DNA of 64,000 nt from Pseudomonas rhizophila (lineage in GTDB: Bacteria; Pseudomonadota; Gammaproteobacteria; Pseudomonadales; Pseudomonadaceae). Below, in pieces: positions 47,930 through 48,345 of the stretch. Within the stretch, counting starts at the first letter, position 1; every line of letters begins with the position of its first letter. Below the pieces are notes generated by a model, which searched no databases, was not told the origin of the DNA, and worked only from the letters and a program-made list of their open reading frames with translations. The stretch lies in the NCBI RefSeq assembly GCF_003033885.1, contig NZ_CP024081.1, positions 5,137,255-5,201,254 of the forward strand. The letters are read 5' to 3'. The translations under genes were made by a program, and so were the position numbers.

Positions 47930-48057
47930 ATGGTCAAGCCTCACGGGCAATTAGTATGGGTTAGCTCAACGCCTCACAGCGCTTACACACCCCACCTATC
48001 AACGTCGTAGTCTTCGACGGCCCTTCAGGGGACTCAAGGTCCCAGTGAGATCTCATC
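47930..48057 (-). rRNA. rrl: 23S ribosomal RNA, last ~128 nt only
   Basis: The minus strand reads GATGAGATCTCACTGGGACC, then GAAGGGCCGTCGAAGACTAC, GACGTTGATAGG, GTGTGTAAGCGCTGTGAGGC and CCCGTGAGGCTTGACCAT, which is the 3' end of pseudomonad 23S rRNA. The remaining ~2.75 kb of 23S, the spacer tRNAs and 16S are missing: directly upstream is tuf coding sequence. The partial gene is real sequence at the 3' end, but the junction at 48057 is abnormal. Confidence 0.93.
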
Positions 48058-48345
48058 AGCACCAGTGATCATGTTTTTTACGTAGTCGGCGTGACCTGGG
48101 CAGTCAACGTGTGCGTAGTGACGCACGGCCGAATCGTATTCAACGTGAGCGGTGTTGATGGTGATACCGCGAGCTTTCTCTTCCGGGGCGCTGTCGATCT
48201 TGTCGAAGTCAACCTTGGCCGAACCGAAAACTTCGGAGCAGACACGGGTCAGAGCAGCGGTCAGCGTGGTTTTACCGTGGTCGACGTGACCGATGGTGCC
48301 AACGTTGACGTGCGGTTTGTTCCGTTCAAATTTTTCTTTAGCCAC
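48058..48345 (-). pseudogene. tuf: Elongation factor Tu, N-terminal 96 codons, truncated at a 23S junction
   Basis: The sequence is normal EF-Tu from [20 protein letters not shown] through the P-loop [10 protein letters not shown], switch [14 protein letters not shown], and switch [18 protein letters not shown], then breaks where AQMDGAILV is expected. It continues as 23S rRNA (ATGAGATCTCACTGG). Native tuf is about 397 aa, so 300 codons are lost, including half the G domain and domains 2 and 3. It follows fusA by 30 bp, the normal tuf place in the str operon. The product would be non-functional; a second tuf enters at the right edge. Confidence 0.92.

Follow-up and report, generated by a model that had tools for sequence, protein, structure and literature searches.

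A truncated tuf gene joined to a 23S rRNA tail in a Pseudomonas scaffold, very probably a false join at collapsed repeats

Repeated rDNA in bacterial assemblies and the tuf/23S junction

Collapsed and wrongly joined rDNA in short-read bacterial assemblies is treated in the riboSeed paper (PMC6009695), and this kind of problem is already well documented. In the excerpts of that paper on which we draw, repeated rDNA ends contigs or collapses, the order of flanks can conflict with that of relatives and the flanks of related genomes expose the error, all of which is also seen at the locus presented here. A case from the same genus is the Pseudomonas fluorescens WH6 draft (PMC2997014), for which the corresponding excerpts report one rRNA operon observed and five suspected to be collapsed into one contig, at about 5x coverage; the present genome is likewise a Pseudomonas assembly whose rRNA operons are apparently collapsed. 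There are differences from both. Unlike the riboSeed cases, as those excerpts present them, the join described here also spans two repeat families (tuf and 23S) and is hidden by a single pseudo-chromosome (PMC6009695). The WH6 authors, again as excerpted, kept and declared one collapsed operon contig, whereas here the remnants of five loci are joined mutually or to unrelated sequence (PMC2997014). Our literature search found nothing treating rRNA operon collapse, misassembly and tuf together.

The window, that is, the whole stretch of 64,000 nt that was analysed (G000:C1:5137255-5201254), belongs to a single sequence of 5,948,515 bases (5.95 Mb). On its minus strand tuf is normal for 96 codons and one further base and switches at 48057 to the end of 23S rRNA, followed by spacer, 5S, a terminator-like hairpin and recC (Table 1). 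The original prediction, made from the letters alone, had described this normal tuf, the switch at 48057/48058 and the ordinary spacer, 5S and terminator beyond it, and alignment bears it out: the stretch from 48057 to 47631 (tail, spacer, 5S and hairpin) shares 99.3% identity across 427 nt with the 3′ end of the intact rrn copy (3052874-3053300). Base 48057, which matches both the tuf side and the 23S side, is the only overlap, in agreement with the one shared base that had been proposed, and the junction carries no N gap, in contrast to three rrn edges of the same scaffold, a point against a misjoin. Both matches are far above chance (LSU rRNA E 1.9e-18; tuf part against tufB E 5.3e-137) and both sides are multi-copy sequence, tuf having a second copy and the 23S tail being found at four loci. 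The chimeric ORF (48034-48345) has 103 codons, residues 1-98 of which match EF-Tu profiles. Rfam matches in the window further include the sRNAs P24, P26 and P27 and the rpsL_pseudo leader, all pointing to Pseudomonas.

Table 1. Features of the junction region (first seven rows, window coordinates) and of the rrn loci and leaders (remaining rows, scaffold coordinates)
Feature	Position	Strand	Evidence or content
tufA 5′ part, 289 nt (codons 1-96 plus one base)	48345..48057	-	97% identity to tufB over 288 nt; EF-Tu profile 1-98
Putative misjoin point; one base fits both sides, no N gap	48057..48058	.	25-mer in 1 of 398 genus genomes
Last 128 nt of 23S rRNA	47930..48057	-	100% identity to nt 2765-2892 of intact 23S; RF02541, model 2815-2912, 69.7 bits
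23S-5S spacer	47780..47929	-	Inside the 427-nt stretch 99.3% identical to the intact rrn copy
5S rRNA, normal	47664..47779	-	RF00001, 103.2 bits; 100% identity to 5S of the intact operon
recC ORF; true neighbour of the rrn 3′ end in relatives	44057..47617	-	TIGR01450 recC, 1225.6 bits
fusA (EF-G); true upstream neighbour of tufA	48376..50481	-	TIGR00484, 1171.8 bits; followed by tuf and rpsJ in G005 and G010
rrn locus 1	window		tuf, then 23S from nt 2765
rrn locus 2	4996685-4996688		16S and about 65 nt of ITS, then 23S from nt 2787
rrn locus 3	401010		Other multi-copy repeat, then 23S from nt 2822 and two 5S
rrn locus 4	3049382		Tandem repeat and exactly 100 N, then 16S from nt 1303, ITS, 23S and 5S
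rrn locus 5	5205077		rrn leader and exactly 100 N, then 11 nt and 5S
rrn leader			Continues into full 16S
rrn leader	5205177		Meets 100 N, ahead of a 5S
rrn leader	649028		Runs gapless into a repeat array after this position
rrn leader	2510028		Meets 100 N, then unrelated sequence
rrn leader	5948515		Stops at the last base of the scaffold

The junction appears to be private to this assembly. With up to 3 mismatches allowed, the only one of the 398 genus genomes to contain the 25-mer across it is the source genome itself; an exact search for the 25-mer in genome_contigs returned 0 records, a search from which the window's own record may be left out. None of the matches listed for 18 relatives spans the junction. 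Of the 12 same-genus genomes, 10 have a fusA-tuf match that stops at the junction (query position 1044); in G005 it stops at 1051 and in G001 at 952. GC skew over 30-64 kb of the window shows no sign change at the junction and is therefore uninformative, lending no independent support to a misordering.

In relatives the two sides belong to separate intact loci. The contiguity of fusA, tuf and rpsJ expected by the original prediction holds in both relatives checked (G005 and G010), where tuf has its full 397 codons, and G010 has a complete rrn operon next to recC. The 23S tail and the recC side fall within one match in 4 of the 12 same-genus genomes (G003, G005, G010 and G011), several of the others being drafts with rrn sequence cut at contig ends. 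In G012, a single contig, recC and the nearest listed rrn are about 14 kb apart, so the rrn-recC pairing is not universal in the genus; given these two observations, the 23S tail and recC were rejected as a genus-wide conserved pair.

Remnants of tuf, rrn and other repeats across the scaffold

A tuf 3′ part next to rpsJ, for which the original prediction had proposed to look elsewhere in the genome, lies at 1520523, where it has in turn been misjoined to an IS110 end. It comprises tuf nt 919-1194 (276 nt, to the stop), begins three bases past 1520519, the end common to IS110 copies, and is followed by rpsJ at 1520963, the whole lying 3.66 Mb from the window junction in scaffold coordinates. 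With nt 1-289 in the window and nt 919 onward at 1520523, tufA nt 290-918 (629 nt) occur in neither half. The tufB gene (5202151 downwards), as the second copy, is complete and carries seven N, at nt 300, 310, 546, 570, 744, 780 and 897; all of them fall inside the interval missing from tufA and none outside (chance 0.011, by position alone), six of the seven at third codon positions. The 289 nt of tufA in the window show 9 differences from tufB, none of them beyond nt 54, nt 55 to 289 being identical. The N in tufB are as expected if a consensus had merged the reads of two near-identical tuf copies. A point against this is that the two G010 copies are distinguished by just three sites across nt 290-918, of which one, 570, coincides with an N site of the source genome.

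Outside the window, between rpsJ and rplC, lies a plus-strand stretch of 43 nt (scaffold positions 1521285-1521327) that is 86% identical to 23S rRNA nt 293-335 and is also found in G005 and G010. It could be a candidate 23S mimic by which a ribosomal protein regulates the operon that encodes it, control of this sort being paralleled by the S10 leader and L4 of E. coli. Rfam at E 0.1 gave no related family for the 43 nt (one weak microRNA-family match was elsewhere in the searched stretch), and a literature search gave nothing that, going by its listing, was related.

Not one of the five rrn loci in the scaffold is intact (Table 1). The whole scaffold holds one full 23S (3050110-3053001) and one full 16S, the latter at another locus (4996750-4998286), together with six 5S across the five loci. 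Repeat bodies are thus fewer than their flanks: five leaders and five 3′ flanks against one full 16S and one full 23S. Gaps of exactly 100 N occur at three rrn edges, and single N are present also in the intact 23S copy and its spacers; we assume that N of both kinds were already in the assembly as deposited. The gene beside the fifth rrn is presumably tyrS-like.

All five counterpart operons of G010 are complete (16S 1-1537, 23S 1-2892), and their flanks restore the partners of ends that are misplaced in the scaffold. The recC side of the window pairs with 642864-649028, the 3053300 side with 2505061-2510026 and the 401602 side with 5943054-5948515; at the other two loci, one of them on the tufB side, both flanks are in place by the same comparison. 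The 5′ flank of the recC-side operon, near 649 kb, likewise ends in a 16S leader. The scaffold's upstream neighbours at 3049282, 401010 and 1520519 had no match in the five G010 rrn stretches.

Some local features of these loci can be recorded separately. At 401231-401569 there are two tandem 5S genes; a second 5S-type match by an rrn 3′ end is also among the matches listed for G003, G005, G010 and G011, so a tandem 5S looks normal for the genus. Positions 3048900-3049281 are taken up by a tandem array, its unit some 58-60 bases long by eye, that abuts a 100-N gap. Near the start of the scaffold (3512-3908) scattered N are clustered, perhaps from merged reads of an internally repeated gene.

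Other repeats are broken up in a similar manner. The IS110 element (NF033542) is full-length once, with one N, and otherwise exists as five pieces of 254-312 nt, two of which are joined to each other with the internal part missing. The copy at 5412735-5413307 lacks 816 internal bases and has a one-base overlap at the join, the same signature as the tuf/23S join and probably the same artefact. Of the repeat seen at 401010, five pieces (200-273 nt) are found elsewhere; 28 nt separate one of these from a piece of IS110. From the pieces of both elements it follows that repeats in this scaffold are commonly represented by butted ends about one read or fragment long. We assume that the gene beside IS110 is brnQ-like and that REP-type repeats are among those present.

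A probable false join weighed against rearrangement, transposition and function

Judged by these sequence comparisons, the tuf/23S junction is very nearly certain to be a false join of two contig ends at collapsed repeats, an artefact and not biology. The 5.95-Mb "contig" is almost certainly a scaffold whose pieces end within such repeats, 48057..48345 being almost certainly the edge of a fusA-side contig within the duplicated tuf gene and 47930..48057, with the same near-certainty, the edge of a recC-side contig within an rrn operon. The fusA contig would have reached 289 nt into tufA and stopped there because the sequence of tufA that follows hardly differs from tufB, and the recC contig would have continued past the 5S, covered the final 128 nt of 23S and stopped because five rrn operons have that sequence in common. 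Scaffold building would then have butted such ends together, sometimes with exactly 100 N and sometimes gapless; scaffolding or finishing software presumably made these joins. In reality fusA, tufA and rpsJ probably follow one another, with rrn-recC as a locus of its own, and we infer that the cell has an intact fusA-tufA-rpsJ along with five intact rrn operons.

The original prediction had offered two readings, contigs wrongly joined at two multi-copy loci or a real non-homologous rearrangement. The first is strongly supported and the second is not supported. Breaks of the same type occur at the four remaining rrn loci and in other repeats. Such a rearrangement would have joined tufA to an rrn operon, destroyed one tuf and one rrn copy and parted fusA from the S10 cluster, and we regard it as very improbable. 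A non-homologous join might indeed give a gapless junction with one common base, and EF-Tu would still be obtainable from the second tuf copy, but the reciprocal product is missing: the search for a 23S 5′ part ending at the junction point (nt 2764) found none, the only 23S reaching that far being the full copy, no other long 23S piece is present, and the tuf 3′ part has IS110, not 23S, as its neighbour. Breaks of one type at all five rrn loci would also leave a single 16S and a single 23S, each at its own locus, and the part missing from the middle of tufA appears as undetermined bases in tufB. The proposed destruction of one rrn and one tuf copy was wrong in kind, as the copies appear to have been collapsed by the assembler. 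A real inversion or translocation was rejected on the same grounds, namely that the reciprocal junction was not found and that all five rrn loci are broken. There is scarcely any chance that a burst of non-homologous joins really stripped this lineage of one tuf and the majority of its rRNA operons, so that a single 16S and a single 23S were left at separate loci and the S10 cluster was detached from fusA.

A mobile element, IS110 or another, that carried or split tufA and an rrn operon and left the breaks as transposition scars is extremely improbable. It would account for the tuf 3′ part starting three bases past an IS110 end and for the multi-copy repeat that adjoins the 23S tail at 401010; however, the sequence left of that IS110 copy is something other than the tuf 5′ part, there is no IS sequence at the tuf/23S junction itself, and IS110 copies elsewhere are also cut to 254-312-nt ends, which fits collapsed repeats over transposition. 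An IS110-mediated event was accordingly rejected, the element being absent from the junction and itself present as cut ends. A functional role, as a truncated gene, can practically be discounted for the 103-codon ORF, which encodes an amino-terminal fragment of EF-Tu plus a few residues read from 23S: although the frame is open and the start intact, the ORF spans the misjoin, stops a few codons past it and has its junction in no other of the 398 genus genomes.

Consequences for the use of the assembly

The genome is scored 100% complete with 0.96% contamination, a score that says nothing on order. With the false join at collapsed repeats as by far the best reading of this locus, the finding amounts to a warning only: a one-contig genome scored 100% complete can hold false joins at rrn, tuf and insertion-sequence repeats, and at these points any rRNA copy number, gene order, synteny break or truncated-gene call derived from such an assembly would be wrong.
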